The position numbers were made by a program, and so were the translations under genes. A stretch of DNA of 34,021 bases from Acidimicrobiales bacterium. Its GTDB lineage: Bacteria > Actinomycetota > Acidimicrobiia > Acidimicrobiales > Aldehydirespiratoraceae. Shown here in pieces: positions 1 through 22,372 of the stretch (position 1 is its first letter; every line of letters begins with the position of its first letter). The stretch is from assembly GCA_029263175.1 (NCBI GenBank), contig JAJCXZ010000015.1:1-34021 (forward strand), given 5' to 3'. The notes under the pieces were generated by a model. That model was not told the origin of the DNA, did not search any database, and saw only the letters and a program-made list of their open reading frames with translations.

Positions 1-54
1 GCCATGCCGCTGATTCGCGTCACCCGAATCGACCCCGCCGAGGTGTTCCGATGA
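1..54 (+). CDS. FtsX/MacB-type ABC permease, C-terminal end only
   Basis: Only the last 17 codons are in the window. They read [17 protein letters not shown] and then stop at TGA 52-54. The ending R-x-DPAEVFR is typical of FtsX/MacB-type permeases, whose last transmembrane helix is followed by a short tail such as I-x-PAEVLR. The stop overlaps the ATG of the downstream ATPase (ATGA at 51-54), so the two are translationally coupled and probably form one transporter. Family assignment rests on a short tail plus context. Confidence 0.7.
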   Translation, partial: AMPLIRVTRIDPAEVFR

Positions 55-941
55 CACCAGTCCTCAGCCTTGAAGCGGTCACGAAGACGTTCACCACCGG
101 ATCAACCACCATCGCCGCGGTCGATCACATCGACCTGACCGTCGACCCGGGCGAACTCGTCATCATCATGGGTCCCTCCGGCTCCCGAAAGTCGACACTG
201 CTCCAGATCATCGGCGCACTGCTCTCACCCACATCAGGCACCGTGAGCATCAATGGTCGTCCGTTGGGGAGCCTCACCCATCGCGAACTCGCAGACCTGC
301 GTCTGCACGACATCGGCTTCATCTTCCAGGGCTTCAACCTGCTCGACGCCCTCAACGCCACCGACAATGTCGCCGCCCCCGCGGCCCTGACTGGCATGAA
401 GCGCAGTGCCCGCCGCCTCCGGGCGCAAGTGCTGCTCGATCAGCTCGATCTCGCCGACCGTTCCCATCACCGGCCCGACCAGCTCTCCGGTGGGGAGAAG
501 CAACGGGTCGCCATCGCACGCGCGCTCATCAACAACCCGTCCCTGATCCTTGCCGACGAGCCCACCGCAAACCTCGACGCTGCCTCGGGCTACCAGGTCC
601 TCCACCTCCTCCAAGACATTGCAGCCGCCACCGGCAAGACCGTTCTGATCGTCACCCACGACCACCGCATCGCCGACGCCGCCGACCGGCTCCTCTGGCT
701 CACCGACGGCGTCCTCCACGACCGACACGCCGACTTCGCCACTGCCATCGACCCCGTCTGCGGAATGGAGATCCTCATCGAGCGTGCCGCCGCCACCCGC
801 ACATCCGGTGACAGTCAGACGTTGTCGTTCTGCTCCCAACTATGCGCTGACAAGTACGACCTGCGTCCCAACTTCTATGACCTCCCACAGGCCGGGAGTG
901 CCGTGAACCGCCCACCCATCAATCATCCCCAGCGGTCCTGA
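51..941 (+). CDS. ABC transporter ATP-binding protein with C-terminal YHS metal-binding domain
   Basis: The 296-residue protein has an ABC ATPase of the LolD/MacB type at about residues 5-225, partner of the FtsX-like permease ending just upstream. Visible motifs are Walker A at 41-49, a Q-loop (FQGFN), the signature LSGGEKQR, Walker B ([12 protein letters not shown]) and an H-loop (IVTHD). Walker A reads GPSGSRKST: the glycine before the catalytic lysine is arginine (codon cga; gga would give glycine). After the ATPase, from about residue 232, comes a YHS/TRASH-like segment starting DPVCGM and continuing with FCSQLC and a Y/F-rich end. This module binds heavy metals and often precedes copper ATPases. 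The MerR and CxxC genes that follow support a metal-export or metal-sensing role. The substrate is inferred. It overlaps the next gene by one base. Confidence 0.9.
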
Positions 942-1399
942 TGCTCATCGGAGAACTTGCCGACAAGGCCGGCGTCGGAGCAAAGACGGTTCGCTACTAC
1001 GAATCCATCGGCCTCATGCCCGAGCCCGACCGCACACCAACCGGATACCGCGACTACGCACCCGACGCCCTCGAGCGACTTCGCTTCATTCGCGACAGCC
1101 AAGCCACAGGCCTCGCCCTGGCCGAGATCCACTCCATCCTCGAGCTCAAAGCCTCAGGCGCACGGACCTGTCACCACACCCAAGAACTCCTGTCGGAGCA
1201 TCTCGCCGACATCGACCACCAGATCCACCAGCTGCAAACCACGCGGCGCCAACTCGTCGAACTCGCCGACCGAGCCGGGGGCTTGGACCCGATCGACTGC
1301 ACCGATCCCAACCGCTGCCAAGTCATCGAAACCCACCGCCACCCACCGACGCCCGTCCCACCCCGAAGAATCGAACACCAAAGGAACACCAGCAAATGA
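941..1399 (+). CDS. MerR-family heavy-metal-responsive transcriptional regulator
   Basis: The 152-residue protein has a MerR winged-helix N-terminus ([21 protein letters not shown], then GYRDY) and a long dimerisation helix. Cysteines at 77, 120 and 126 resemble the three-cysteine pattern of metal sensors such as MerR and ZntR; C120 and C126 lie in a short loop after the helix, where these proteins bind metal. It would bind the spacer of a promoter and activate the operon on metal binding. The metal (Hg, Cu, Zn, Cd or Pb) cannot be told from sequence alone. Its ATG overlaps the ABC gene stop by one base, and its own stop overlaps the chaperone gene by four, so it is probably co-transcribed. 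The tail after residue 130 is Pro/His/Arg-rich and looks disordered. Confidence 0.92.
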   Translation: MLIGELADKAGVGAKTVRYYESIGLMPEPDRTPTGYRDYAPDALERLRFIRDSQATGLALAEIHSILELKASGARTCHHTQELLSEHLADIDHQIHQLQTTRRQLVELADRAGGLDPIDCTDPNRCQVIETHRHPPTPVPPRRIEHQRNTSK

Positions 1400-1596
1400 C
1401 CACCGACACCCGCACCTACACCGTCCCAACCATCAGCTGCGACCACTGCAAGAAGGCCATCGAGGACAAAGTCACCCCGCTCGCCGGCGTCGACACCGTC
1501 ACCGTCGACGTCGAGAACAAGACCGTCACCGTCATCGGCGGCGACTCCACCGCCATCGAGGCCGCTATCACTGATGCCGGCTACGCCGTCGCGTGA
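1396..1596 (+). CDS. Heavy-metal-associated (HMA) domain protein, CopZ-like metallochaperone
   Basis: The 66-residue protein is essentially one ferredoxin-like HMA domain. The metal-binding CxxC is CDHC at residues 15-18, followed by KKAIE and the usual beta strands ending in DAGYAVA. Proteins of this size (CopZ/Atx1-like) bind Cu(I) or another soft metal and hand it to a transporter or sensor. The gene starts inside the end of the MerR gene (ATGA overlap) and ends in a GTGA overlap with the next small gene. Here the partner could be the YHS domain of the ABC ATPase or the permease, since no P-type ATPase is visible in the window. Copper specificity is a family-based guess. Confidence 0.92.
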   Translation: MTTDTRTYTVPTISCDHCKKAIEDKVTPLAGVDTVTVDVENKTVTVIGGDSTAIEAAITDAGYAVA

Positions 1597-1829
1597 CCTC
1601 CTGGGTCAACCGCACTGCCACAGCGGTCACCGACGACTTCCACGACGCCGTGCGGTTCTCAGCGGACCGACTACCTCTGGCCCAGGCACACGCGCTGTGG
1701 CTCGTCGACGTCTGCCATACCACCTACACGCAAGGAGCGATCGAAACCGGGACAACCCCAAAGCGATTCGCCAAACGGGCCCACGTCGCCCGCACCACCA
1801 TCCGCAACACCCTCCCAGGACCCACATGA
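1593..1829 (+). CDS. Small helix-turn-helix protein of unknown function
   Basis: A 78-residue protein starting with GTG in a GTGA overlap with the chaperone gene. I do not recognise a family with confidence. The C-terminal half (about residues 40-75: ALWLVDVCHTTYTQGA, then TPKRFAKRAHVARTTIRNTL) has the rhythm of a helix-turn-helix. It could be compared with sigma-70 region 4 or with an Xre-type HTH. Its stop overlaps the start of the lipoprotein gene (ATGA at 1826-1829). The coupling on both sides is the best evidence that it is real. It may be a second regulator of the operon or a remnant of a sigma factor. Confidence 0.65.
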   Translation: MTSWVNRTATAVTDDFHDAVRFSADRLPLAQAHALWLVDVCHTTYTQGAIETGTTPKRFAKRAHVARTTIRNTLPGPT

Positions 1830-2629
1830 CCCACCTTCGACCGCTCCTTGTTGTCACATCCGTGGCGGCTCTTCTCCTGTCAGCATGCGCAGCGGAGAGC
1901 CCTGAGGAAGTCCAGCCGATCAGCGCAATCCTCGACTCAGACATCAACATCGCCTTCGACGCGTCCGGCACCAGTGCGAACCTCACCGTGGACACCAACA
2001 TCCCGGTGGCCTGCGCCGTCATCTTCGGCACAGATGACTCCTACGGGTCGATTGCCGTCGACAACGACATGCAAGGAGGTGCGCACCACGATCACGGTCC
2101 CGTGCTCTCGGGGCTTCTTCCCGACACTGAGTACCAGTACATCCTCCAAGGCTCCGACGCTGCCGGCACCCTCTATCGCAGTGAGCCGCTCACGTTCCGC
2201 ACGCCACCAGCGTCGGCCGACCCCATCGACGCCGCCATCGGAAACAACGTCGCCGTGGACGGAACCGTTGTCAACGTCAGCTCTGAGTTCTCCGATGCCT
2301 TCCGCGCCGCCAACGCCATCGATGGTGACACCTCCACACAGTGGTCCACCGCAGGAGATGGCGACAACGCCTCCATCGAGATCGACCTTGGCCAAACTCA
2401 GCTCATCACTGCGGTTGCCTTTCGCACACGGCAGATGACCGACGGCACCGCGATCACCGAAACCTTCACCATCCAGATCGACGGCGAGACCCTCGGCCCG
2501 TACCCCGCCGGCCCGGAGCCGGCCGTCCTCGACCAGGCGATCAGTGGCCGCACCGTCCGAATCGACGCCGAACAAACAACCGGTGGGAACACCGGCGCCA
2601 CCGAAATCGAGATCTACGCCACCCAATGA
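1826..2629 (+). CDS. Secreted lipoprotein with Fn3-like and F5/8 type C (discoidin) domains
   Basis: I chose ATG 1826 because it opens directly into a lipoprotein signal: MTHLRP, a hydrophobic stretch, and the lipobox LLSA-C with Cys21 as the lipidated residue. This start also makes the ATGA overlap with the previous gene. The open frame continues upstream but has no signal peptide there. The mature protein (267 residues with signal) has a beta-rich domain at about 35-130, ending GLLPDTEYQY, like the Fn3/purple-acid-phosphatase N-terminal domain and carrying a GGAHHDHG histidine cluster. A discoidin-like domain follows at about 145-265 (AANAIDGDTSTQWST; IEIDLGQ). Discoidin domains usually bind glycans or lipids; the His cluster could bind metal. 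It is the last gene of the metal operon. Confidence 0.85.
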   Translation: MTHLRPLLVVTSVAALLLSACAAESPEEVQPISAILDSDINIAFDASGTSANLTVDTNIPVACAVIFGTDDSYGSIAVDNDMQGGAHHDHGPVLSGLLPDTEYQYILQGSDAAGTLYRSEPLTFRTPPASADPIDAAIGNNVAVDGTVVNVSSEFSDAFRAANAIDGDTSTQWSTAGDGDNASIEIDLGQTQLITAVAFRTRQMTDGTAITETFTIQIDGETLGPYPAGPEPAVLDQAISGRTVRIDAEQTTGGNTGATEIEIYATQ

Positions 2630-2681
2630 CCCGCGCCAGCCTGCCGGGGACCGTCGCATGATGTGTGTAACGGTGCCGTGG

Positions 2682-2703
2682 GCCGAGATCATTCACGCTC
2701 GGC
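2682..2703 (+). terminator. Weak inverted repeat after the metal operon
   Basis: GCCGAG at 2682-2687 pairs perfectly with CTCGGC at 2698-2703 around a 10-nt loop, about 50 nt after the lipoprotein stop. There is no T-run after it, so intrinsic termination is only a possibility. Confidence 0.25.
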
Positions 2704-2810
2704 AAAGCTCGGGTGCGCAAGGCCGCCGCTGGTGACGCCGAAAGTTACGTGTTGCCGTGGATCTCTTAGCAGTCGAACACCGAGCGCCGTGCAGCAGGCG
2801 TGCAACTCGC

Positions 2811-2860
2811 AGTGAACAACAGCGCACAACAGCGCACAACAGCGAGCACTACGCACAACA
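2811..2860 (+). repeat. Short tandem repeat array (AGCGCACAAC unit)
   Basis: AGCGCACAAC occurs twice in exact tandem at 2821-2840. Degenerate copies flank it (AGTGAACAAC at 2811-2820, AGCGAGCACT at 2841-2850, ACGCACAAC at 2851-2859). The array lies about 60-110 nt from the tRNA fragment. This is where arm-type integrase or excisionase sites often sit, which is an inference. Confidence 0.45.
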
Positions 2861-2920
2861 CGAGACCGCTCGTGACCTGCGTGTTCACGCGAATGTCCTG
2901 GTCGGAGCATGGCGGGATCG

Positions 2921-2966
2921 CTGCTTTGGGAGCAGGGGGTCGGGAGTTCAAATCTCCCCGTCCCGA
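2921..2966 (+). other. 3' fragment of tRNA-Pro(UGG): probable attachment site (attL/attR)
   Basis: The sequence reads as the 3' part of a tRNA. The anticodon loop is CTTTGGGAG with anticodon TGG at 2926-2928, flanked by TGC/GCA stem bases. A 5-nt variable loop follows, then a perfect T arm (GGGAG, TTCAAAT, CTCCC), then an acceptor strand CGTCCCG with discriminator A at 2966. G72 and A73 are hallmarks of tRNA-Pro. No 5' half is present: the expected CGGGACG start and a D arm are absent, and the match stops abruptly at 2921. There is no encoded CCA. This is the classic product of integrase-mediated insertion into a tRNA 3' end. The fragment is on the + strand, so the element should lie to its left and the chromosome to its right. 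The intact tRNA should lie beyond the left edge of the window. Confidence 0.8.
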
Positions 2967-3005
2967 CAAAAATCACTTCAGAGTGCCTGACTACAGTGGC
3001 GGGCC

Positions 3006-3503
3006 ATGACTGACAGCACCTCTGACGCAGCAGAGAATCCCGATGCCGAAGGCGACCTGCATCGCCATCAGGCGATCGAGGCGAACAATTCCGTCTGGGA
3101 CCTCTACGACGGCCGCACCTACGGACCCGATGATGTCGACGAGCTCCTCGGACGGGCCTACGCCGCGGCCCATCACTGGCGTCGGGCATCCGGGCGCAGT
3201 CCGGCCAATGCTGCCCGAGCGTCGTGGCTCCTTTCCCGCTGTCACGCTGTGCTTGGTCATGGCGAGCTCGCCCTCCACCACGCCGAGCAGTCCGCACGCG
3301 TCGTTGAAGGCGCGGGGCTGCACGATTTCGACCTGGCCTACGCCCACGAAGCTCTCGCCCGAGCGCTCGCCTGTCTCGGCCAGATGGACGACGCAGCCGC
3401 CGAACTGGCGCTGGCGAGGGCCGTGGTCGTTGCCCGTTCCGAGGATCGAGCGATCGTCGAGAGCGACATCAATGCTGAACCCTGGTTTGGGCTCGTCCTC
3501 TAG
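3006..3503 (+). CDS. Alanine-rich TPR-like helical protein
   Basis: A 165-residue soluble protein with no signal peptide. From about residue 45 it is almost entirely alpha-helical and Ala/Leu/Arg-rich, with helix pairs resembling tetratricopeptide repeats (around 68-100, AARASWLLSRCHAVLG and following, and around 102-140, AYAHEALARALACLGQMDDAAAEL). Repeats of this kind usually mediate protein contacts; no catalytic motif is visible. A GGCGGG stretch precedes the ATG. It is the first gene to the right of the tRNA fragment, so it probably belongs to the resident chromosome. The next gene starts only 9 nt after its stop, suggesting co-transcription. The partner and process are unknown. Confidence 0.75.
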   Translation: MTDSTSDAAENPDAEGDLHRHQAIEANNSVWDLYDGRTYGPDDVDELLGRAYAAAHHWRRASGRSPANAARASWLLSRCHAVLGHGELALHHAEQSARVVEGAGLHDFDLAYAHEALARALACLGQMDDAAAELALARAVVVARSEDRAIVESDINAEPWFGLVL

Positions 3504-6439: not shown

Positions 6440-8890
6440 CTACTGAAGGACGCCGGCATCGCCAAGCGCGTCGACCTCGGCGGCGCTGAAGCCGAGCAGT
6501 TCCCGCAGGACGGTGTCGTTGTGTTGCCCGACGGTCGGCCCTGCAGCATGGGCTGCCCACGGGGTTTCGGAGAATTCGGTGACCGGGCCGTCGTACCGGG
6601 TTTCCATGAGCGCGTGCGGAAGTGCCGTGAAGAAGCCTCGGTGTTCAAGCTGCGGGTCTCTGATCAGATCGGTGGGCCGAAGCGTCGCATAGGCAGGGCA
6701 ACCGGCCTCGAGAAGGGATCGAGCGATGGTGAAGACGTCGTGGCCGCGGACCCACTCCGCGAAAACGTTCTCGATCTCGGATCGACGGGCGAGTCGCACC
6801 GCGTCGGAGAGGTCGTCGAACGTCGGCGTGGCGAGCGGTGTGACGACCGTGCGCAGCGCCCGCCAGTTCTGCTCGGTGATTGCTGAGACCGCTATGTATC
6901 GCTCGGTGCCCCTGCCCGCGAAGACACCACTCGGAGCGCCACGCTCCCCCGACGCTCCCGGGCGGATGAATGTCGACTCATTCACCACATGATCGAGGAC
7001 CATCGGGCCGAGGAAGTGAATGCCGGTCTCGTTCTGCGACACATCGATGTATTGACCGATTCCGGAGCGTTCACGTTCGCGGAGGGCCGCCACCAACGCA
7101 GCCAACCCGAAGCGCGGCGACACGAAGTCGGTGTATGCACCCCATGGACTGATGGGCGCCCTGTCGGGCCACCCCGTGATGTCCACAAAGCCACCCAGCG
7201 CCGCACCCTGGACTCCGAAGCCGGTCGCTCCGGCTTCGGGGCCCGTCTGCCCCCGCATCGACGTCGACAGCATGACGACACGAGGGTTCAGTTCGTGAAC
7301 GCGCTCCCAGCCGAAGCCGGCCTTCTCCGCGACGCCTGGCCGGAAGTTCTCGACGACGACATCCGCCCAGCGAATCAGCCGGTCGACCAGTACTCGAGAT
7401 TCCGGCCGACTCAGATCACACGCCACGCCGAGTTTCGATTGATTGACGTTGGCCGCCGGGATACTGCCGGCCGGCGTACCCGCCGGATCGTTGAACGGCG
7501 GAAGCAGACGCATACTGTCGATCCGGTTGGCCGACTCGGTGTGGATGACCGTGGCGCCGTGATTCGCGAGTTCGCGCGTGACAATCGGACCGGCGGCCAT
7601 CCAGGTGAAGTCAGCGACCTTCAGGCCGTCATAGATCCGGCCCCGCTCCCGGGTGACCGCCGGTGCCGGCCTCGGCACAATCGACTCGACCATTGCCTGA
7701 TCAGCACCTAGGCCAGGTGCAGGCCGGTCGTAGCTGATCGGCGTGCGGCTGAGGATGGCGAACGGTCCCGGGTGCGACTCACCATCGACCTCGACCCAGA
7801 AGTCCCGGGCCTGAAGCTGCGGATCGGCCAGCAGATCCGCAGCGTTGTTGCACGGAGCCATCAGCAACTTGTCGGCGAGCGATCGGTCGTGGAGCTCGAT
7901 CTTGGTCTTGGTCTTCAAGAACTCGAGGACGGCATCCACGGCTCGGGAACCGACCTCGACCGGCAGCTCACCCGACTCCATTCGTTCGACCCAACCAGCC
8001 CAGTCCTGCCCACAAAGGTCTACGTCGAGTTCACCTTCCTCCTCGGCCCATCTCAGGACTCCGGAGAACGCCGTTTCGCCCTGCTTCCCCAGCACGAAGA
8101 CCACCGCGACATGGCCTTCGGCGCATGCTTCGATTTTCGGGCTGCGAAGGCCGGGCACGATCTCGGTGCCGCGTGGGTCGGGCGCATCGGCGCGGTCATC
8201 GCCGAGGAACCGAGGGTTCTTGTCGAGCACCGCATACGACGACGTCCACAACAGACAACCGACCACACCTGCCTGCATCGACGAGTCGAGATGCTGGCCG
8301 AGCCCGGAGTGGTCTCGTTCGTACAGGGCGCCGATGGCGTCGGCCGCCGCCTGGACAGCTCCATGGTTCGCCGATTCGGGAAAGCCGATCGGTATCGGAG
8401 GTCGATCCTTGTCTCCCTGACCGATCAAGAAGCCACCCGCCGCGGAGAGCGTGAGGTCCGATGCCGGCGCACCAGCGAGAGGGCCCGTCGACCCGAAGGG
8501 TGTGACCGACACGTGCACCAGGCCGGGATTCCGGGCGCGCAGCGCCTCGGCGTCGAGTCCGAACTCAGTCAGACCATCGGGCCCCCACGACTCGATCAGG
8601 ATGTCGGCGCCGTCGACGAGGCGGTTCAACGTCGAGCGCCCGACCGCAGTCGAGAGATCGAGGACCACGCTGTGCTTGCCTCGTCCCCAGATCCGCCAGT
8701 ACAACGACTCGCCAGTCGTTCGATCGAAGGGGCCCCGAGAACGGGATTCACAGCCCTCCGGAGGTTCGACCTTGATGACCGTGGCCCCGAGGTCGACCAG
8801 AACTCTCCCGGTGGCCTCGGCGAGGTGGCCCCCGAGGTCCACGGCGATGATGTCTCCCAAGAGGCCCGGTTCGCCACCGCTTGCGTCCAC
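6440..8890 (-). CDS. Tandem-duplicated type III (CaiB/BaiF) CoA-transferase
   Basis: The protein has two complete class III CoA-transferase domains in one chain. Copy 1 begins LLGDIIAVDLGGHLAEATGRVLVDLGATVIKVEPPEG and includes GLGQHLDSSMQ. Copy 2 begins RIYDGLKVADFTWMAAGPIVTRELANHGATVIHTES and includes GIGQYIDVSQNE. The GQ-x-x-D-x-S regions lie near the active site of the family. Normal members are about 400 residues, so about 816 residues is two domains. They move CoA between carboxylic acids, so this would activate the substrate of the downstream dehydrogenase. The start is uncertain. GTG 8890 follows a purine-rich AGGGGGAG and lies just before the first domain. The frame stays open to GTG 8995, but the extra 35 residues match nothing familiar. 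Confidence 0.85.
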   Translation of the reverse strand: MDASGGEPGLLGDIIAVDLGGHLAEATGRVLVDLGATVIKVEPPEGCESRSRGPFDRTTGESLYWRIWGRGKHSVVLDLSTAVGRSTLNRLVDGADILIESWGPDGLTEFGLDAEALRARNPGLVHVSVTPFGSTGPLAGAPASDLTLSAAGGFLIGQGDKDRPPIPIGFPESANHGAVQAAADAIGALYERDHSGLGQHLDSSMQAGVVGCLLWTSSYAVLDKNPRFLGDDRADAPDPRGTEIVPGLRSPKIEACAEGHVAVVFVLGKQGETAFSGVLRWAEEEGELDVDLCGQDWAGWVERMESGELPVEVGSRAVDAVLEFLKTKTKIELHDRSLADKLLMAPCNNAADLLADPQLQARDFWVEVDGESHPGPFAILSRTPISYDRPAPGLGADQAMVESIVPRPAPAVTRERGRIYDGLKVADFTWMAAGPIVTRELANHGATVIHTESANRIDSMRLLPPFNDPAGTPAGSIPAANVNQSKLGVACDLSRPESRVLVDRLIRWADVVVENFRPGVAEKAGFGWERVHELNPRVVMLSTSMRGQTGPEAGATGFGVQGAALGGFVDITGWPDRAPISPWGAYTDFVSPRFGLAALVAALRERERSGIGQYIDVSQNETGIHFLGPMVLDHVVNESTFIRPGASGERGAPSGVFAGRGTERYIAVSAITEQNWRALRTVVTPLATPTFDDLSDAVRLARRSEIENVFAEWVRGHDVFTIARSLLEAGCPAYATLRPTDLIRDPQLEHRGFFTALPHALMETRYDGPVTEFSETPWAAHAAGPTVGQHNDTVLRELLGFSAAEVDALGDAGVLQ

Positions 8891-9075
8891 CACTCCCCCT
8901 CGGTCGAAGACAGGATCATCGCGTCCGGACTCTCTCGACGCAATCTGTCCACTGGTCGCCTGTACGGTCGCTCGATGACATCCGATGACCGACACCGCCT
9001 GGCGCTGAATGGCGCCGATGGCTGCGTCGCCGCCGTTGGCCGAGTAGAACCTCAGCAGTGTTGAAGGTTCGACTC

Positions 9076-10089
9076 ATGTCCCGCTCTTCCCCGACCATCC
9101 CCGCGGACCCGTGGCGTCGCGTCCGGGTAGGCCTCGCCATTCTCGGCCTGGTCATGACGGTCGGCGTGATCGGCTATCGAATTCTCGGGCTCGACTTCTT
9201 CGACGCGTTCTATCAAACGGCCATCACGGTCACCACCGTCGGCTTCGAGGAGATCGGCCCCGAAGAAGAGATCGACCGGGCGTATCGCACCTTCACGCTC
9301 TTGCTGGTGTTCTTCGGAGTCAGCGGGGCGCTCTACACGCTGAGCGTCATGGTCGAAGCCGTCGTCGAGGGAAGCATCAACGACGGATTTCGTCTGCGGA
9401 AGGACTATCGCATGATCCAACACATGAGTGACCACGTCATCCTCGCCGGCGCCGGGCGCGTCGGACGAGCCATCAGCCACTACGTCGGTCTACACGACGC
9501 CGACCTGGTGATCGTCGACCGCGCCTATCGCCCCGATGGCGACCAACCCGTGATTCTCGCCGAAGCGACGGAGGACGAGACGCTCATTCAGGCCGGCGTC
9601 GAACGTGCTCACACGCTCATCGCCGCCCTGGACAGCGATGCGGACAATCTCTACGTGACCCTTTCGGCCCGCGCGCTCAACCCCAACCTCTTCATCGTGG
9701 CCCGGACCAACTCGCAAGCCAACGAAGCCAAGTTCTTCCAAGCCGGTGCAGATCGGGTGGTCAACCCCCATGAGATCGGCGGGTCACGGATGGGTGCGCT
9801 TGCACTGCACCCCTCCCTGGCGGAGTTTCTCGACGAGGTGCTTCATGACGAGTCGCACGGCGTTCGCATCGCGGAAGTTGTCCTCCCCGCCAGCTCTGCC
9901 GCCATAGACGCACCCCTCAGCTCGCTCATGGAACGTTGCCACCATTCGCCGTTGATTCTCGCGGTGCGAAATCAACAGCACGGATACGACGTCAACCCCT
10001 CGAGCGACACGCCTCTGAACACCGGCGACGTGCTCGTCGTTCTCGGACACCCCGCCGAGGTGGACGACCTGCGCCGGGCAGCGAACTGA
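9076..10089 (+). CDS. Potassium channel with RCK (TrkA-N/TrkA-C) regulatory domains
   Basis: The 337-residue protein has a two-helix pore module followed by a cytoplasmic RCK domain. Helix 1 spans about 16-37, the pore loop carries the selectivity-filter sequence TTVGFEE (53-59), and helix 2 spans about 71-93. The RCK N-lobe starts near 119 with VILAGAGRVGRAI (nucleotide-binding GxGxxG at 125-130) and acidic residues after the next strand. A TrkA-C lobe ends the chain. It should form a tetrameric ligand-gated K+ channel of the MthK/YugO type. ATG 9076 is preferred: AAGG lies 8 nt upstream and the protein then begins like relatives. A GTG at 9058 adds six residues. It is divergent from the CoA-transferase gene and ends 10 nt from the convergent GT2 gene. 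Confidence 0.9.
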   Translation: MSRSSPTIPADPWRRVRVGLAILGLVMTVGVIGYRILGLDFFDAFYQTAITVTTVGFEEIGPEEEIDRAYRTFTLLLVFFGVSGALYTLSVMVEAVVEGSINDGFRLRKDYRMIQHMSDHVILAGAGRVGRAISHYVGLHDADLVIVDRAYRPDGDQPVILAEATEDETLIQAGVERAHTLIAALDSDADNLYVTLSARALNPNLFIVARTNSQANEAKFFQAGADRVVNPHEIGGSRMGALALHPSLAEFLDEVLHDESHGVRIAEVVLPASSAAIDAPLSSLMERCHHSPLILAVRNQQHGYDVNPSSDTPLNTGDVLVVLGHPAEVDDLRRAAN

Positions 10090-10099
10090 CCCACGCCCT

Positions 10100-11095
10100 T
10101 CACCCGCGCCGCACGGCTCGGCGAAGCGCCGCGCGACCACCGAGTTCGTCAGCGGCAGCCTGGTAGAAGCCGATGTTCTGAATCACGCTGCAGGCTGCAC
10201 TGGTCAGCCATCCCGCTCCGAGTCGGTTCGCCGTCCGTGCCCCGATTCTCGAAATCACCAGAACCGGCTTCTGCAGGACCGGGAGATCGATGCAGGCGAC
10301 AAGAAGAAGCTTCACGAAGGGATGCCGTTCGTCGAAGAACCGGGCGAAGTCGGCGAGCCCGGGGTCGTGCCCGCGATCTCGGCCGAAGATCACGGCAGTT
10401 GATCCGTAGGACCGAGCGATGGCACACCATGATTCGAACGAGCGTTCTGCGTGGTGGTAGCCGATGGCCGCATTGCAGAACGCGAACAGGGTGCCTTCCT
10501 GGCCCATTCGCCAGGCGAGCTCAGTGTCCTCATCCCGGCGAAGCGCCTCGTCGAACCCGCCAACGGCAACGACGGCAGCGGTCGGCACGGAGGCATTGCC
10601 GGTGTAGAACTGCCGACTCGTGGCTTCCCAGTCACCGCGATCCATTGCCGCGTATTGCTTTTCCAGGTTCTCCTGCTCCCACTGAACCCAAAAGCTCAGC
10701 CCGCCCGCCGGCGGAGTCATCATGGGGCCGATCACCGCGGTGTTCTGACGGCCAGATTGCTCGGCGAGATGGGTCGAGAGGAGTGATGGCGCGGCGACCA
10801 TGTCGTCGTCGAGAAAGACGATCAGGTCAGAGTTGGCCGAGGCGATCCCCCGGTTCCTCGCCGCTCCTGCTCCCGCGTTGTCCTGTCTGAGCGCGATCAG
10901 CGAGAAGTCCCACTGGCCGGGGTCGGCCAGCATGTCGTCGGTGCCGTCGGTGCAGCCGTCGGAAACGACGATCACCTCGAATCGGCCCGCGATGTCCTGC
11001 CCGTTCAACGAATCGAGTGTGCGCTCGAGGCTGACTCGGCGTTGGAAGGTCGGGATCACCACACTCATGACGACCTCGTCATCTTCTTGCGTCAT
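10100..11095 (-). CDS. Family 2 glycosyltransferase
   Basis: The 331-residue protein is a GT-A fold transferase. It starts MSVVIPTFQRR, has the nucleotide-sugar motif VSDGCTDGT (45-52), the NAGAGAARNRGI stretch, and the metal-binding DDD at 96-98 (FLDDDMV). A later GGFDEALRRDEDTELAWR matches the acceptor/catalytic region of GT2 enzymes. It would transfer one sugar from a nucleotide donor onto the polysaccharide repeat unit on the cytoplasmic face. The donor and linkage are unknown. It is the last gene of the polysaccharide operon and shares a 4-nt ATGA overlap with the polymerase gene, which decides the start at 11095. A weakly hydrophobic stretch after residue 240 may touch the membrane. Confidence 0.92.
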   Translation of the reverse strand: MTQEDDEVVMSVVIPTFQRRVSLERTLDSLNGQDIAGRFEVIVVSDGCTDGTDDMLADPGQWDFSLIALRQDNAGAGAARNRGIASANSDLIVFLDDDMVAAPSLLSTHLAEQSGRQNTAVIGPMMTPPAGGLSFWVQWEQENLEKQYAAMDRGDWEATSRQFYTGNASVPTAAVVAVGGFDEALRRDEDTELAWRMGQEGTLFAFCNAAIGYHHAERSFESWCAIARSYGSTAVIFGRDRGHDPGLADFARFFDERHPFVKLLLVACIDLPVLQKPVLVISRIGARTANRLGAGWLTSAACSVIQNIGFYQAAADELGGRAALRRAVRRG

Positions 11096-12591
11096 GCCTC
11101 GGGGTCCACGGCTTCAGGTTCTGTGAGCTTGTCCGTGCGCACCACCATCGCGAACGCAATCGACAGCAAGACCATCGACTCGGTTTCCCACGCGATGTCG
11201 ACGTAGGCGAAGGCGAGGAACATGGCGATGAAGGTGGCACCGACCGTGGCCAGCACCGCGGTCTCGGCGTCTTTCGCTCGAATGGCCGCACGCACACCGA
11301 CGGCCACACCGCGGCCGAGCACATACAGCAATGACACGAATCCGATGATGCCGGTCTTCATCCAGATGTAGAGGATCGAGTTGTGGGTGACATATCGCCA
11401 CAAGACGAACGCGCTCCCCAAATCAGGAAGCGGGATCGCTTGCAGGTACGGCTTCCCGAAGCCGATGCCGAGTAGCGGGTTGGTTCGAAGGGTTGCCAAG
11501 ATGTTGATGTTCTCGACAGTGCGGTACGCGTTGCTCGACTCGTCGAGCCCCTCGGAGCCGATCAGTTGACCCTTGATTGCCTGTGCGGGGAAACCGGGTC
11601 CGCTGTCGACGTTCCAGAATGCAGCCGTGTACCCGAGAACCAGGAATGCCACCAGTGGAACGATCGAATAGAAGCGTGCCCGGTCCCGGCGGTACAAGAT
11701 GATCGACAAGAGCACCGCGGCGACGATCAGTGCACCAATGGCCGAGCGTCGCTCACTGAGGCCGTAGACCCAGAAGATCGGCACCAGTATGAACGGCAGC
11801 ACGAGTCGTTTCGCAAAGCTGCCGCGCCGCGTGAGCCAAGCGGATGCAAAGGTCACCAGCGCCACATTCGCGTGAACCGAAGCCGAGTGGACGTTGAGGC
11901 TGTCGGTGGCGACGCGTTCAGCCGCATCGATCTGCCGGTAGTACCAGTCGAGACTCAGAATCGAGTCGACGAACACCGCAGCAATGATGATCCAGAGCGC
12001 CGTGTTCAAATGGCGTCGTTCGGTGAAGAGATTCACCGCCAGGATGGTGAGTACCGGCAGAGCGAAAAGCGCCCTGCTCTCATGGACCGCGACGAAGTTG
12101 CTTCCTCCCGTACCGAGTCCGTACATCACACCAAGCAGCACGGCTGCGGTGAAGACCATCAGGGGGCGAATCAGCTCCGGTCGATGCGTGACCTCGAGGC
12201 GCCCGCGGGCAACGTGGACCACCATGGCGACAAGCGTCACTCCGAGATAGCCCTCCATGGGAGAGACGATGATCGAGTCGGCAACGAAGAGGATCGACTC
12301 GCGGCTCGACACACCCTTGGTGAATGGCCACCACGGTGACACGAAGGGATCACCGGCGAGAGAGAAGAAGATCAGGCTGTAGACCCCGATCACCGGGCGC
12401 CACAAGATGAGCGGAATACCGAGCAAATAGATTCCCGCCGCGACAGGAAACGGAACATGGCCCGAGCGCAGAGCCAGCCCCGCGACGACCAAGGCCACGA
12501 ACAACACCGCGAGGTAGACGAAGAGGTCGTCTGCTCGCTGTCGCCGCCGGGCGCTGCGAATGTTGCTCACCGGTGAGTCGAGGAGCAACAT
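11092..12591 (-). CDS. O-antigen ligase/polymerase-like membrane protein (Wzy/WaaL family)
   Basis: The 499-residue protein is a polytopic membrane protein with about a dozen hydrophobic segments. The C-terminal half contains a large external loop with an R-x-N-I-x-I-L-x-x-L-R-x-N-P-L-x-G-I-G-F-G-K-P pattern. The NPLLGIGFG region and the following HNSILYIWMKTGIIG are the signature of the Wzy_C/O-antigen ligase family. In a Wzx/Wzy pathway it joins lipid-linked repeat units outside the membrane. I chose ATG 12591 (MLLLDSPVSN) because it lies 1 nt after the stop of the small membrane gene. The longer frame would read antisense through that gene region without family similarity. It overlaps the downstream GT2 by 4 nt. 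Confidence 0.9.
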   Translation of the reverse strand: MLLLDSPVSNIRSARRRQRADDLFVYLAVLFVALVVAGLALRSGHVPFPVAAGIYLLGIPLILWRPVIGVYSLIFFSLAGDPFVSPWWPFTKGVSSRESILFVADSIIVSPMEGYLGVTLVAMVVHVARGRLEVTHRPELIRPLMVFTAAVLLGVMYGLGTGGSNFVAVHESRALFALPVLTILAVNLFTERRHLNTALWIIIAAVFVDSILSLDWYYRQIDAAERVATDSLNVHSASVHANVALVTFASAWLTRRGSFAKRLVLPFILVPIFWVYGLSERRSAIGALIVAAVLLSIILYRRDRARFYSIVPLVAFLVLGYTAAFWNVDSGPGFPAQAIKGQLIGSEGLDESSNAYRTVENINILATLRTNPLLGIGFGKPYLQAIPLPDLGSAFVLWRYVTHNSILYIWMKTGIIGFVSLLYVLGRGVAVGVRAAIRAKDAETAVLATVGATFIAMFLAFAYVDIAWETESMVLLSIAFAMVVRTDKLTEPEAVDPEA

Positions 12592-12592
12592 T

Positions 12593-12733
12593 TCAGACGA
12601 ACCGATAGTTGAACAGCAATATGGTGGCCACCAGTGCGACGCCGAGAACCGCCAGCCGAGACCACTTCTCATTCTTGGCGGATCTCGCGCCGATCAGGCC
12701 CGAGACCACAAGAAAGAGAACGACGACCTGCAT
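12593..12733 (-). CDS. 46-residue two-helix membrane protein
   Basis: A short frame between the BY-kinase-like and polymerase genes encodes 46 residues. It has two hydrophobic helices (residues 2-16, QVVVLFLVVSGLIGA, and about 27-43, LAVLGVALVATILLFNY) joined by a basic/polar turn (RSAKNEKWSR) and ends FV. It begins 6 nt after the TAA of the upstream gene and stops 1 nt before the ATG of the polymerase gene, so translation coupling is likely. No Shine-Dalgarno sequence is obvious. I do not recognise a family. The hydrophobic pattern, exact fit into the gap and positively charged loop argue that it is a real gene. It may help the adjacent Wzy-like polymerase or the flippase. Confidence 0.65.
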   Translation of the reverse strand: MQVVVLFLVVSGLIGARSAKNEKWSRLAVLGVALVATILLFNYRFV

Positions 12734-12739
12734 GGAGTG

Positions 12740-13426
12740 TTAACTGGCCACCATCGGGTCGACCAACCACGATGGCGCCTTGATGGCAGCGTCGTTGAGG
12801 ACGATTCCACCCAGACGATCGCGCCCAAGGTCATCAAGGGCGACACGGATCTGTTCGATCGGCGCACCACCCTGACGAACGACGACGAACGTCTGACCCG
12901 CCAGTCCGGTGAGCGCAAGCGAATCGGAGGTTTCGCCGACTGCAGGAATATCGAGGATCACGATGTCGAAGTTGTCGCTGACGTCGTCGATCACCTGTCG
13001 TAGTTCTGCTGAGCGAGCGAACCCGGCCCGTTCCATCAAGGGGATTTCGCCGGCGGGGAGCAAGAAGAGACGATCGTGGTCGGTGGGAATGAGGGCTTCA
13101 TCGAGGTAGGCCTCGCCGGAAGCCACGTCCACGATTGAACTGCCTTCGCCGGAGTCGCCCTTCGACCAATCGAGCGACACGACGCAGACTCGCCGCTCGG
13201 TGTCGTGTACAGCGGTCACAGCCAACGCGTTGGTGATGTAGGTGACCCCTTCTCCGCTCACCGCCGACGTGATCGCAACCACCGCTGGGTGGCTCTCGAG
13301 AAGCTCGGAGCGCCGCATGAGAATACGCATCTGCTCGGCGACCACGTAGGGCGCGCGAATGACCTCGCCGTCCTTGGTCTCGGCTCGGAGTTCGGCTCTG
13401 TCCTTCTTGCGGAACGGCACTCTCAT
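12740..13426 (-). CDS. BY-kinase/CpsD-like ATPase lacking the Walker A lysine
   Basis: The 228-residue protein aligns with bacterial tyrosine kinases and MinD-like ATPases of polysaccharide clusters (CpsD, CapB, Wzc C-terminus). An early region contains YVVAEQMRILMRRSELL (27-43), then ITSAVSGEGVTYITNALA (52-69), where relatives have GEGK-S/T. The lysine is valine 61. A Walker A'-like strand VCVVSLDWS (80-88, Asp86) and Walker B IVILDIPAV (Asp159) remain. There is no tyrosine-rich C-terminal tail. It probably pairs with the separate Wzz-like protein, as CapA/CapB do, but ATP hydrolysis and kinase activity are doubtful. Its ATG overlaps the flippase stop by 4 nt. It ends 6 nt before the tiny membrane gene. 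Confidence 0.85.
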   Translation of the reverse strand: MRVPFRKKDRAELRAETKDGEVIRAPYVVAEQMRILMRRSELLESHPAVVAITSAVSGEGVTYITNALAVTAVHDTERRVCVVSLDWSKGDSGEGSSIVDVASGEAYLDEALIPTDHDRLFLLPAGEIPLMERAGFARSAELRQVIDDVSDNFDIVILDIPAVGETSDSLALTGLAGQTFVVVRQGGAPIEQIRVALDDLGRDRLGGIVLNDAAIKAPSWLVDPMVAS

Positions 13427-14979
13427 GAGTTGGGCTCTTTTCCTTCGCCCGGAGAATCCGAGCGATCAAACTTGCTGCTGATTACGTCGGCGACCCGGTC
13501 ATGGAATCGAGAGATTCTGTCGAACGGAGGACCCAGCGTGGCGACTTCGTCGAAGTCGATCACCCGGAGGATCAGCACCAACGCAGGATAGATCAGCGCT
13601 CCGGCCAATACGGGCCACACGAGAGCGAAGTCGGACAAGGCGTACACGAAGACCCCCATGACTGCGGCCGCCAGAGCGGCCTTGGCCACTTGCACGGCCG
13701 TTGTACGGTCGATCAGACCTCTCACCATGAAGAACAAGCCGAAGATCAGAGCGCCGGCTTCGGTGAAGACGTAGGCCAAGGCGCCGGCGATTGCGGGGTT
13801 GTCGTAGGTGTCCCGGGTCCACGGCACAAGTACCAGATCCAGCGGAATCGTGGCCGCAGCAGATGTGAGCAGGACGAACGACCACACCACCTGTCGGTTC
13901 GATGCCGTCGCGAAATAGCCAAGCAGGATCGTGACCGAGACCGGAATGAGAACGACGGCGTAGACCTGCAGGACATCGCCCGTTTCGGCGAACTCATCAC
14001 CGAACAACAAGAGGGCAAATTGATCGCCCAACACCACGACGCCGGCCGTGAGCGGAAGCACGACCAGCATCATGATCATCGTTCCCTTCCGGAGTAGCGC
14101 GAGCGCCGAGTCGAAGTCGCGTTCAACCTCGCGAGTGAGCCGGGGGAAGAGCGCGGCGCCGACCGCGACCGGGAGGAAAAGCATGTTGCCGAAGAGTCGA
14201 TCCGCTGCCGCATAGTGGCCGACGGCCTCTTCGTTGACCAGCGCCGCGATCACGATCACGTCCACCTGCTGGTAGAGGATCAATGAGCCGATCAGCAAGA
14301 GATAGGGCAGGCACTGCCGCAGCAACTGTGGCAATCCCGGGCGAACCAGCTTCACCCAAAGACGTGTGTCCTGGCGGAAGATCACGATCGACCCGATGAG
14401 CGTGGCAATTGCGCTCACGATCGACACCGAGGCGATCGCGTAGATTTCTGCGTTCAGCGCGACCAGCGCGATGATCAGGCCGCCGTGCACGTAGCGGCTG
14501 ATCACCGACACAATCGACGTGGCGCGCATCCGTTCTCGCCCTTCAACGGCTGCGATCAGCGATGACGCCGGGGCGAGGATGATCCAGGACACGCCCACGA
14601 TGAGGATCAACCAGCGGGCGCGGGCTTCCAACCCTGCTGCGAATGAATACAGGGCCACACCACCCGCGGCAACGACGAACAACGTCGCTTGCATCGTGAG
14701 AACCCGACCGAGAAGGGCGGAGCCGGCATCCGGATCTCGGGCGACCTCACGGCTCACGAGCCGATTCGAACCGAACTCGATTACCGGCGCCGCCACCATC
14801 CAGATCGCGATGGCGAGGCTGATCTCGCCCATCCCGGCGGGGCCGAGATGGCGCGGCAGAACCACCAGGACGACAGTGCCGATCGTCCAGGTCAGCGCTT
14901 GCGCGGTGAGGAGGGAGAGGACGTTTCGACCGACGACCCGGGCCGATGACTCGTCTTCGTCCGGGGGTGCAGGTCCCAT
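13423..14979 (-). CDS. Polysaccharide flippase (Wzx/MOP superfamily)
   Basis: The 518-residue protein has the 12-14 hydrophobic helices of MOP-superfamily flippases. The start (ARVVGRNVLSLLTAQALTWTIGTVVLVVLPRHLGPAGMGEISLAIAIW) is typical of oligosaccharide flippases, and later come a central VDVIVIAALVNEEAVGHYAAADRLF stretch and FPRLTREVERD. It would move the undecaprenyl-linked repeat unit across the membrane. ATG 14979 lies 22 nt after the Wzz stop and directly before the first conserved segment. The frame extends 32 codons upstream into the Wzz gene, but that part is Arg-rich and has no family similarity. It is followed by an ATGA overlap with the BY-kinase-like gene. Confidence 0.92.
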   Translation of the reverse strand: MGPAPPDEDESSARVVGRNVLSLLTAQALTWTIGTVVLVVLPRHLGPAGMGEISLAIAIWMVAAPVIEFGSNRLVSREVARDPDAGSALLGRVLTMQATLFVVAAGGVALYSFAAGLEARARWLILIVGVSWIILAPASSLIAAVEGRERMRATSIVSVISRYVHGGLIIALVALNAEIYAIASVSIVSAIATLIGSIVIFRQDTRLWVKLVRPGLPQLLRQCLPYLLLIGSLILYQQVDVIVIAALVNEEAVGHYAAADRLFGNMLFLPVAVGAALFPRLTREVERDFDSALALLRKGTMIMMLVVLPLTAGVVVLGDQFALLLFGDEFAETGDVLQVYAVVLIPVSVTILLGYFATASNRQVVWSFVLLTSAAATIPLDLVLVPWTRDTYDNPAIAGALAYVFTEAGALIFGLFFMVRGLIDRTTAVQVAKAALAAAVMGVFVYALSDFALVWPVLAGALIYPALVLILRVIDFDEVATLGPPFDRISRFHDRVADVISSKFDRSDSPGEGKEPNS

Positions 14980-15001
14980 GGTGTGTACTTGCCGCCGGCC
15001 T

Positions 15002-15958
15002 CTACTTCGCTCGCGGCACGAGCGCCAGAACCTCGGTGCCGAGGCGTTCGCGTACCTCGATCGGGAAACGGACACTGGTGTCGACGACCGTCGAGATCAA
15101 CAGCGCAGCGGCGCTCATGGCCATACCCATGATCGCGAAGAGGGCGACGCGAAGTGCCGTGTCGAAAATGCTGGAGAGCGGCTCGGTCGGAAGCTTTGGC
15201 GCATCCTCCACCCTGAAGGCGGAACGCACGTTGATCTCGGCCTGCGACGTGAGCAGCTCGGCTGATTCCAGAGCCTGTACCGCCTGGTCGTATTTTGCCT
15301 GTGCTGCCGTCACCGAGTCACTGAGAATGGTGAGGTCGATCGTTTCCTGGGTCGAGCGGTCGCCGACGAGGGGGTCGGGGTTCAACACCAGGAAGTCATC
15401 CACCGCGGCGCGCGCTCGCTGAAGTTCGTCCAACTCCAGAGCGACCTGCTGGGCCAGGAACTCTTCGGCCGCCAGAGTTTCGGTGAGGTCTGCCTCGATC
15501 AGCCAGCCGATGTAGGCATCGAGGGTGGCGGTCGCCAGTGCCTGCGCCGATCCAGGGCTGGTGGTCGTCGCCGACACATCGAGGAACGAGCCGCTCGAGA
15601 CAGACGTGGAGATCGCCTGACGGGCAGCATCGACCACCACGGGATCTCGCGGTGCTTCGCCGGCGGAACCGGCCTCGTCCAAGACATCGTTCATGAACGA
15701 ATCGGTTTGCATCAAGCCGAACAGCTGCTCCTGCGCCGCCTCAGCGGCGGAGAGAAAACTGAAACCGTCGGCACTCACCTCGGTGAGATCGGCGATCACA
15801 GAGCTCTCGTCGACGAATACCACGCCGGTTGACTCGAACTCGTCGGCGGTGGACAGCGAAAGGAAGCCGATGGCTGCGAAGAGCGTGACCGGGAGGGCAT
15901 AGCGGACCGGGTGCCGGAACAGGTTGTCGATGATCCTGATGAGCAGCGTAAACGTCAT
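15002..15958 (-). CDS. Wzz/CapA-like polysaccharide chain-length or co-polymerase protein
   Basis: The 318-residue protein has the Wzz layout: a short cytoplasmic N-terminus, a first transmembrane helix (about 19-36), a long external alpha-helical region rich in Glu/Gln/Ala (about 37-262, coiled coil around 160-235), and a second helix (about 265-290). It ends with a short cytoplasmic tail. Members control polymer length or couple polymerisation to export. It lacks a kinase domain. The separate ATPase-like gene two genes downstream would be its partner, in the CapA/CapB style of Gram-positives. Its start overlaps the WecG-STAS stop by 4 nt (ATGA). The low sequence conservation of the family limits the call to fold and context. 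Confidence 0.88.
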   Translation of the reverse strand: MTFTLLIRIIDNLFRHPVRYALPVTLFAAIGFLSLSTADEFESTGVVFVDESSVIADLTEVSADGFSFLSAAEAAQEQLFGLMQTDSFMNDVLDEAGSAGEAPRDPVVVDAARQAISTSVSSGSFLDVSATTTSPGSAQALATATLDAYIGWLIEADLTETLAAEEFLAQQVALELDELQRARAAVDDFLVLNPDPLVGDRSTQETIDLTILSDSVTAAQAKYDQAVQALESAELLTSQAEINVRSAFRVEDAPKLPTEPLSSIFDTALRVALFAIMGMAMSAAALLISTVVDTSVRFPIEVRERLGTEVLALVPRAK

Positions 15959-16977
15959 GACTGAGCGCTTTCAGATGAAGGGGGATTCGTTGAGGGCGAA
16001 ATGGGAGCGATTGAAACAAGGGTGTCGAGCTGGAGGTCGGCCAGTTGTGCACCGAGTCCCTCGCTGATCCCGACGTACTGCACATGATTGCCGGTCCGGC
16101 GCGCGATTGTGGTGAGAGACGAGAGGCGGACAGCAGTAGCCCGGTCGAGCCGGTTGACCTCTGACAGATCGATGATGCCGTCGTTGCTCGCCAAGGAGCC
16201 CATGTGGTGCGACGAGCGGCGGGTGCGTCGCCACTGGCGGGCGATGGCGGGAGCGAACACAGCGAGGTCTCGAGCGTAACGACGGGCGAGGCGACGAGGA
16301 TCGCGGCTCATGCGGTACAACCACTCAAAACCAGTGCGTTGCATCACCGCGGGAGCCCTACGGACATCTCCGGCCAGGAACTCGAAGGTCCCACCGACGC
16401 CTATCGAGACAGGGACGCCAAGATTCGACGCGTAGCGGTCGATGAACTTCTCCTGTTTCGGGTTTCCGAGTCCCACACACAAGACGTCGGGCGCAAATGC
16501 CTCAATTTGACTGATTTCACCCGCTGCGGTCGTCCCGTCCGAATCGACCAGCGCCGTGGCCGTCCCGATTTCGAGACCGGGATGCACAGTCCGCATCAGC
16601 TCCGCGGCCTCCGCCGCCGCATCATGGGCGCCGCCGAAGAACATAACCCGGTGTCTCATGGCTGCCGCTTGTGCACAGAGCGCCGGAACGAAGTCCGCGC
16701 CGGCAACGCGTTCGGGAAGCCGGTGGCCGAGCAGCTTCGACGCCCATACCACCGGCATCCCGTCGGCGAAACAAAGATCGGCGTTTCGCAGGATGCGATG
16801 TAGCTCCGCATCGTCGGTTGCGTTGACCAGAAAGTCAGTGTTGACGGTGGCGATCTGATGCGAGGCGCCTGAGTCGCGGGAGTGTTCCACCATTTGCGCG
16901 ACGCGCTCGCGGGCCTCGTCGAAGGTGACGTTGTGGATCGGTATGCCAAGGATCGGCACCGAGTGGACGGCGGTCAT
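15955..16977 (-). CDS. WecG/TagA/CpsF glycosyltransferase fused to a STAS-like domain
   Basis: Residues 1-255 form a WecG/TagA/CpsF (GT26) transferase, with VNTDF (45-49), ADGMPVVW (71-78), GNPKQEK (171-177), GVGGTFEFLAGDVRRAP (193-209) and FEWLYR (217-222). These enzymes add N-acetylmannosamine, its uronic acid or related sugars to a lipid-linked first sugar. After a basic linker, residues 264-325 read as a STAS domain: IIDLSEVNRLDRATAVRLSSL, then helices and VQYVGISEGLGAQL. In anti-sigma antagonists the motif is D-S-S/T-G; here it is D-R-A-T, so the phosphorylatable serine is absent. I chose ATG 16977 (MTAVHSVPILGIP), in an ATGA overlap with the upstream GT2. The upstream frame extension is antisense artefact. 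A regulatory or scaffolding role of the STAS domain is inference. Confidence 0.9.
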   Translation of the reverse strand: MTAVHSVPILGIPIHNVTFDEARERVAQMVEHSRDSGASHQIATVNTDFLVNATDDAELHRILRNADLCFADGMPVVWASKLLGHRLPERVAGADFVPALCAQAAAMRHRVMFFGGAHDAAAEAAELMRTVHPGLEIGTATALVDSDGTTAAGEISQIEAFAPDVLCVGLGNPKQEKFIDRYASNLGVPVSIGVGGTFEFLAGDVRRAPAVMQRTGFEWLYRMSRDPRRLARRYARDLAVFAPAIARQWRRTRRSSHHMGSLASNDGIIDLSEVNRLDRATAVRLSSLTTIARRTGNHVQYVGISEGLGAQLADLQLDTLVSIAPISPSTNPPSSESAQS

Positions 16978-21593: not shown

Positions 21594-21595
21594 CG

Positions 21596-22372
21596 CTACC
21601 CGAGCGCGTGGATGAATCGCACCATGTGGTCGGCAACCAGAGCGCCGGCTTCCAGCAGGATCGAGTGCTTGTACCCGGGCAGGATCACGAGCTCGGAGTT
21701 CGGGAGCGCCTCGTCGATCTGATGGTTGAGCCGCGGACTGCAGCCACCATCGTTCTCCCCGGTCAGCACCAGCGACGGTGCCGTGACCTCATGGATCCAC
21801 GGTGCCATCTCCACTGCGGCGTAGATGCGGAAGACATTGAGGAAAACCTCCGGGTCGCACGCAATGACCTGATCGAGGCGGCGACGGACCACCTCAGGGT
21901 TCTGCTCGATGAACTCATCGGTGTACCAGCGGTCGGTCAGGGTTTCGAGTACGTCGGGAACGCCGCGTTTCTCCATCGCGGTGACGACGCCTTTGACCTT
22001 GGCACTGTCGTCGTCGGTGCGAAACGCGGCCGTTGACAGGAGCCCGAGGGACTGCACTCGATCCGGGTACCGGCGGGCGTAGGCCGGTCCGATCATGCCG
22101 CCAAGTGAATGGCCGGCAAAGTGCGCCCGTTCGATGCCGGTTCGGTCGCGGACACGTTCGAGATCGTTGACCAGCTCGTCGAGGCCGAACGCGCCATCCG
22201 GCATGGGCGAAGAGCCGTGGCCTCTGAGGTCGTAGCTCACGACGGTGAAGTACCGGTTGAGCAGAGGTGTCATGTGGCGCCACGTGTCACGGGCTGCGCC
22301 GATGCCATGGATCAGGAAAAGCGGCGGGCCCTCACCCTCGACGGTGTATTCGCACTCAACGGTGTCGCTCAC
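21596..22372 (-). CDS. Alpha/beta hydrolase
   Basis: The 258-residue protein is an alpha/beta-hydrolase of the 3-oxoadipate enol-lactonase/haloperoxidase-like group. Motifs are LFLIHGIG (18-25, oxyanion hole), GHSLGG with nucleophile Ser89, Asp208 in LVLTGENDGG and His236 in GYKHSILLE, forming a complete triad. The substrate cannot be read from sequence. In aromatic or kynurenine-type catabolic clusters, hydrolases of this type cleave ring-fission products or lactones, which would suit the neighbouring dioxygenase and dehydrogenase genes. The gene points away from the aldehyde dehydrogenase, with a 139-nt divergent gap. It ends 2 nt from the dioxygenase gene. Confidence 0.9.
   Translation of the reverse strand: MSDTVECEYTVEGEGPPLFLIHGIGAARDTWRHMTPLLNRYFTVVSYDLRGHGSSPMPDGAFGLDELVNDLERVRDRTGIERAHFAGHSLGGMIGPAYARRYPDRVQSLGLLSTAAFRTDDDSAKVKGVVTAMEKRGVPDVLETLTDRWYTDEFIEQNPEVVRRRLDQVIACDPEVFLNVFRIYAAVEMAPWIHEVTAPSLVLTGENDGGCSPRLNHQIDEALPNSELVILPGYKHSILLEAGALVADHMVRFIHALG

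Follow-up and report, generated by a model that had tools for sequence, protein, structure and literature searches.

A displaced tRNA-Pro(UGG) fragment as the probable right attachment site of a copper-rich genomic island split over two contigs

Described islands at tRNA genes and the present locus

In the part of the Islander report on which we rely, a regenerated tRNA gene at one end and a displaced fragment at the other mark the limits of an island; the fragment is a 3′ piece of the gene in the same orientation, and a tyrosine integrase is encoded inside (PMC4383910). TIGER2, as outlined in the corresponding part of its report, treats islands that are split over scaffolds, as well as attP types from terminal segments (PMC9580842). 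A further group are the actinomycete integrative and conjugative elements (AICEs), such as pSAM2, whose core functions are listed in the section of PMC3218068 drawn upon here and which use a tyrosine integrase and insert at the 3′ end of a tRNA gene. A literature search on genomic islands and integrases in Acidimicrobiia returned, at the level of listings, only papers on wider subjects, which is no proof of absence.

The window, that is, the whole stretch of 34,021 bases analysed here, is contig C15 of its genome. An intact tRNA gene, a displaced fragment in the same orientation (50 of 50 bases identical) and a tyrosine integrase gene within the element were all found. In comparison with the islands described in the consulted part of the Islander report, the only difference found was that the present element is split over two contigs, such that a single-replicon search would miss it. 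Like the AICEs, the element combines a tyrosine integrase (the AICE definition admits a tyrosine or serine enzyme) with insertion at a tRNA 3′ end. In contrast to the AICEs as described in the same section of PMC3218068, it has a copper-rich cargo and no FtsK-type transfer, Prim-Pol or RepAM gene in 36 reading frames. An FtsK/SpoIIIE-domain transfer protein (PF01580), part of the AICE definition, found no match in these frames, and neither did RepSA, RepAM or Prim-Pol in a Pfam search that left out the shortest frames, the RepSA model of PMC3218068 not being from Pfam.

Integrases of the same family, with 35-58% identity, stand beside tRNA-Gly in 15 loci from Streptomyces and other actinobacteria. 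In those loci the integrase gene runs towards a tRNA-Gly gene on the opposite strand, whereas in the present element it runs away from tRNA-Pro, in the direction of the tRNA. Among all 22 loci of integrase relatives, tRNA-Gly was found in 15, no tRNA in six, and tRNA-Pro in one only, in a genome of another genus (G022). pSAM2, for its part, uses a tRNA-Pro gene.

Two copies of the tRNA-Pro 3′ part and a contig joint

Window positions 2921-2970 (plus strand) are identical to C26:166468-166517 at 50 of 50 bases. Window 2800-3100, searched against the own genome, gave this exact 50-bp match (E = 3.8e-19) and the query itself; the one other match was a single stretch of 36 bp, 86% identical, to a different part of the query. 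A repeat of 50 bp is far beyond chance. ARAGORN called no tRNA anywhere in the window, and no likeness to a tRNA 5′ half was seen, on reading by eye, in the bases just 5′ of 2921. The remnant extends from tRNA position 29 to A73 (window 2966) and is followed by CAAA. The initial annotation had described it as a 3′ remnant of tRNA-Pro(UGG) lacking the 5′ half and left as a duplicate when an integrase inserted at the tRNA 3′ end, and had placed the element to its left. These points hold, and a second copy and an integrase gene do lie on another contig, C26, whose end overlaps the left end of the window. The segment of identity is 50 bp, however, and not the approximately 46 nt then given, and the anticodon arm, although it is within the repeat with its TGG, lacks the first stem base, position 29 being read as the second. 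The chromosome had been said to resume near 2967; the flank to the right is indeed chromosomal, but the repeat ends at 2970 and the crossover can be placed only to within window 2921-2970.

The G+C content was 63.4% and 64.2% in the two pieces of the element versus 64.0% and 64.5% in the flanks, with no step at 2921, and the GC skew shifted at the boundary, from -0.22 in window 142-2920 to -0.01 after 2970. A promoter scan of window 2600-3010 gave none; thus, a right-end promoter driving the integrase gene in a circular form is unsupported here.

The intact tRNA-Pro gene, with anticodon TGG, was located by ARAGORN at C26:166440-166514 (L002 1473-1547), in the same orientation as the remnant, and the two copies of the repeat diverge after base 50. 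When the own genome was searched for the tRNA sequence, three matches were listed: the intact gene, the remnant and a 76% match on C77. A tyrosine-integrase frame of 377 residues (C26:166620-167753; Pfam Phage_integrase, E = 1.5e-9; Phage_int_SAM_3, E = 4.3e-8), for which we chose a TTG start codon, begins 106 bp beyond the end of the tRNA gene and points away from it, in the direction of the tRNA itself. The tRNA promoter may thus provide transcription that reads into the integrase gene.

The last 141 bases of C26 are identical to the first 141 bases of the window, and this stretch occurs at full identity in the own genome only at these two places, which puts the contig of the intact tRNA to the left of the window. 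The number 141 is also the k-mer size (k141) in the contig name of a sister MAG. An end overlap of this length is what would be expected of neighbouring contigs of a k141 assembly, if, as we infer, the own genome was assembled in the same way; the link is an assembly overlap, not read evidence. The joint falls in a gene pair: the FtsX/MacB-type permease gene (C26:191959-193062; Pfam FtsX and MacB_PCD) ends on the plus strand at window 1-54, with its stop at 54, within the 141-bp overlap, and this stop overlaps the start of the ABC transporter ATPase gene. From repeat to repeat there are 26,682 bases on C26 and 2,779 on C15. The exact overlap thus supports the reading that C26 and C15 bound one element of 29,461 bp, with attL at the intact tRNA gene and attR in the window.

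Cargo, flanks and competing explanations

We scanned 36 reading frames of the element with Pfam (25 + 10 + 1; all but a few short ones, and, since some overlap, not every one a gene). Among the cargo that could be named in this way, copper handling stands out. A first P-type ATPase carries cupredoxin and HMA domains, and there are a metal-sensitive repressor of family PF02583 (CsoR), a multicopper oxidase and a CopC-CopD fusion. A second P-type ATPase is followed by the FtsX permease, the ABC ATPase, a MerR regulator and an F5/8C protein. Both P-type ATPases scored above the NCBIfam cut-off of the copper-translocating family TIGR01511 (613 and 566 bits versus 397). The ABC transporter ATPase (window 51-941, plus strand; ABC_tran, E = 9.5e-32) is DevA/LolD/MacB-like, its best NCBIfam models, DevA and LolD, both remaining below their cut-offs. 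The MerR-family regulator (941-1399, plus strand; MerR-DNA-bind, E = 4e-17) was below the cut-off in all 17 NCBIfam models that it matched, of which CadR-PbrR and CueR were the best. The last cargo gene (1574-2629, plus strand) codes for an F5/8 type C domain protein (F5_F8_type_C, E = 5.1e-13) with no NCBIfam family. Other Pfam matches were to signal peptidase II, LVIVD/PA, AAA, DUF3105, alpha/beta hydrolase, FG-GAP and thioredoxin-fold families. The initial annotation had taken the metal operon at window 1-2629 to be probable mobile cargo; it does lie inside the bounded element, where it forms the end of a copper-rich island that spans about 29.5 kb.

Some match to the cargo DNA (window 142-2900) was found in 341 of 397 genomes of the order, a set that excludes the genus relatives G001-G003; those listed were short, with identities mostly of 66-79%, and of the other genomes among them G300, which belongs to a different family, came closest, at 83% (384 bp) and 76% (571 bp). 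In the genus itself, the absence of cargo rests on the P-ATPase/FtsX operon stretch C26:189799-193149, for which G001 and G003 had matches of at most 366 bp at 65-75% identity and G002 had none. The metal operon, in this part, is therefore not syntenic in all relatives. The best integrase matches in G001-G003 were 27-33% identical.

The chromosome extends to the right of the element over window 2971-34021 (plus strand), and homology to relatives begins at 2985. DNA of this flank is 77-79% identical to G002:C245 from window 2985, to G001:C143 from 3069 and to G003:C306 from 3512, and the gene order agrees with that of G001:C143 over window 4.1-10.1 kb and 21.2-25.5 kb. The first chromosomal gene to the right of attR (3006-3503, plus strand) has no Pfam family; its product has proteins 80% and 77% identical in G002 and G001, respectively, and it had matches in 10 of 61 genomes searched, the own genome included. 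On the other side, collinearity up to the tRNA gene was found with G001:C1 (from about C26:150 kb), G003:C74 (about 154.5 kb) and, in part, G012:C126 (about 158 kb); G001:C1 stops inside the tRNA gene. Bordering this right flank on its left, G002 has a frame of 329 residues that is unrelated and has no Pfam family; in G001 a piece of a transposase (rve, E = 9e-11) lies there, close to the end of the contig. The right-flank stretches of G001, G002 and G003 held no att-like sequence (best 28 of 46 bases). The flanks were never joined on one contig in the regions examined, in searches with the right-flank protein (61 genomes), the tRNA (51 family genomes) and 4 kb of right-flank DNA (four genus genomes, own included). 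The comparison with a genome lacking the element that the initial annotation had proposed thus found an apparent empty site for a sister island (G018, see below), but no joined empty site at the own locus.

Two other observations concern the right flank. The genes at 9058-10089 and 21154-21615 have neighbouring counterparts less than 1 kb apart in G001:C143; the approximately 11 kb at window ~10.1-21.1 kb, absent from G001 here, could be a second insertion, or a deletion. The sequence TGACTACAGT occurs at window 2988-2997, L088 1679-1688 and L139 1204-1213, immediately ahead of the start of the first right-flank gene in the own genome and G002 and, in G003, ahead of the gene that follows; possibly, it is a shared promoter element.

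We conclude that window 2921-2970 is, very probably, the attR of a 29,461-bp integrative genomic island inserted by tyrosine-integrase recombination at the 3′ part of a host tRNA-Pro(UGG) gene. In the proposed mechanism the recombination would take place between attP of the island and the 3′ part of the host gene. The tRNA gene at the left end (attL) would have stayed intact because the island supplied a tRNA 3′ part of its own, and the original 3′ part would have been displaced to the window, where the chromosome resumes. Presumably, the island's integrase carried out the insertion. The 36 frames gave no conjugation or replication gene, and movement between cells would therefore depend on outside machinery. 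The evidence for the island consists of the exact repeat, the intact tRNA gene with its adjacent integrase frame, the contig-end overlap, the flanks of relatives without the tested cargo and the related arms elsewhere; it also supports the interpretation of the initial annotation. On the other side stand a contig link by assembly overlap, the even G+C content across the boundary and the result that no relative showed left flank, tRNA and this right flank joined.

We weighed three other explanations. Two islands could lie in tandem at one tRNA gene, the integrase belonging to the left island and the copper operon of the window to the other. The consulted part of PMC4383910 does describe tandem arrays at tRNA genes, and in G027 a word resembling a left end was noted by eye after a remnant. 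However, a third att copy was found neither among the matches listed in the own-genome searches nor in an ungapped scan of both strands of the element (best 24 of 46 bases), and the joint lies within a gene pair whose stop and start overlap. Although an old, decayed middle copy could still escape detection, we regard a tandem as improbable. That the element is a prophage or phage satellite instead of a plain island is less probable still. In favour of this are the integrase matches to PHROG 1 (integrase, E = 5.5e-57) and PHROG 216 and the match of one other protein to a PHROG of unknown function. Among 10 element proteins compared with PHROGs, the integrase alone matched a family of known function and no structural match was seen; nor did Pfam find phage structural, Rep, FtsK or relaxase families in the 36 frames. 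In viral contigs the integrase had a single relative, 35% identical, and its relatives in plasmids, from 87 records, all stayed below 60% identity, with 44% the highest value listed.

It is, lastly, highly improbable that the remnant stems from an old tRNA duplication with no relation to the copper genes and that the contig link arose by accident. The assembly does give C26 and C15 as separate contigs, but an exact overlap of the k-mer size in the sister MAG's contig name argues against accident, the 50 identical bases show no decay, and the adjoining right end has a homologue at the end of another island. With the integrative island as the preferred explanation, a copper-rich island of an uncultured actinobacterial lineage is now bounded to within 50 bp. 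The boundary is well resolved but ordinary, its biology otherwise textbook, and it shows cleanly how an island divided between two contigs can be recovered via a tRNA remnant and a contig-end overlap.

Attachment arms and tRNA-Pro sites in other genera

The right arm of the attachment region (window 2637-2920, plus strand) is common to the right end of an island in G018 and, in part, to a right end in G027, both of other genera and both at tRNA-Pro remnants. It is 83% identical to G018:C36 over 200 bp (E = 2.0e-50). A search with the G018 arm found the own right end (E = 2.5e-50) and that at the G027 remnant (68%, E = 4.3e-8). Other arm matches in the 51 genomes were short, to the left arms of G018 (both searches) and G022 (G018-arm search); the search with the own arm also gave two weak matches, of 35 and 22 bp, in G004 and G068. 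G001-G003 had no match to the right arm.

Within the arm, window 2799-2860 (plus strand) holds candidate arm-type sites of the integrase: CGTGCAACT at 2799-2807 and repeats at 2810-2844 and 2852-2860. Related words occur in the left end beside the integrase gene. The two ends of the element have in common seven 12-mer pairs that overlap, differ by no more than one mismatch and are each in direct orientation; 60 single-base shuffles gave 0.05 on average and 2 at most. The word CTGGTC is found 9-10 bases into the left-end stretch scanned in the own genome, G027 and G018, being absent in G022, and 23-24 bases before the repeat at the right ends of the same three. The GTGCAAC/GCACAAC words near both ends may well be the arm sites of the integrase.

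The tRNA query gave some match in 49 of the 51 family genomes. In G022, of another genus, an integrase 91% identical to ours lies at tRNA-Pro(UGG) in the same arrangement. The DNA similarity, 88%, begins shortly ahead of the tRNA and breaks off where the integrase gene ends, with 14 kb of contig remaining; parts of the left flank match as well. The genes beyond the integrase differ (of three proteins scanned, one was Fic-type, one gave weak regulator matches and one had no family). An integrase piece in G023, 61% identical, also follows tRNA-Pro(UGG). Other integrase relatives stand beside tRNA-Ala, tRNA-Gly or tRNA-Pro(GGG), or had no tRNA in the stretch examined. A home-made profile for an integrase 3′ of tRNA-Pro, run on 30 loci of up to ~1.5 kb each (L063, with 12 bases, and L067, with 53 bases, being discounted), gave a valid hit in three: L056 (own), L060 (G022) and L066 (G023). 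An integrase-like start noticed by eye in G012 was supported neither by this profile nor by a Pfam scan of picked frames.

At least four tRNA-Pro 3′ fragments without a 5′ part were found, in G018, G027, G002 and G012; G003 (C135) has a further, less good candidate that stays below 36 of 46 bases. In G018, an 11.2-kb island lies at tRNA-Pro(UGG) (C36 ~36630-47840; L096 ~6680-17841). Contig C73 of the same MAG is 92% identical to C36 over 2,221 bp to the left of and through the tRNA, and 90% over 1,837 bp to the right of the remnant; the 11.2 kb between the aligned blocks are present in C36 only, and farther right C36 holds another ~2.4 kb absent from C73. C73 is thus an apparent empty site for the G018 island, and its presence with C36 in one bin could reflect a strain mixture or a duplication. 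The island includes a frame of 2318 residues with CBM (CBM6) and RHS matches, the SpvB match being below cut-off, and a transposase with an rve domain at its right end; a suspected kinship of this right-end protein with the last cargo protein of our element did not hold, the two being unrelated on comparison. No tyrosine integrase was seen among six frames of the island scanned with Pfam, and the integrase search gave no match on C36 and two partial matches elsewhere in G018, one with a stop.

The G018 island thus shares the arms but not the integrase, which suggests that such islands may move in trans. Tentatively, islands of at least three genera could form a set with one type of attachment arm at tRNA-Pro(UGG), some of them (e.g., that of G018) without a tyrosine integrase and moved in trans by an enzyme like ours, the tRNA being a shared dock for interchangeable cargo; this reading is doubtful, and plain loss of the integrase explains the G018 island as well. 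The locus indicates tRNA-Pro(UGG) as an insertion hotspot in the family.

In G027, an intact tRNA-Pro and a 3′ remnant lie 123 kb apart (C17:8111 and 131126; L093 and L094), and to the eye the bases past the remnant resemble the left end of another island; several islands may lie there in a row. The own genome, at L054 (G000:C58), has a further integrase, 32% identical, which runs towards a tRNA-Pro(GGG) on the opposite strand, possibly a second tRNA-Pro island.
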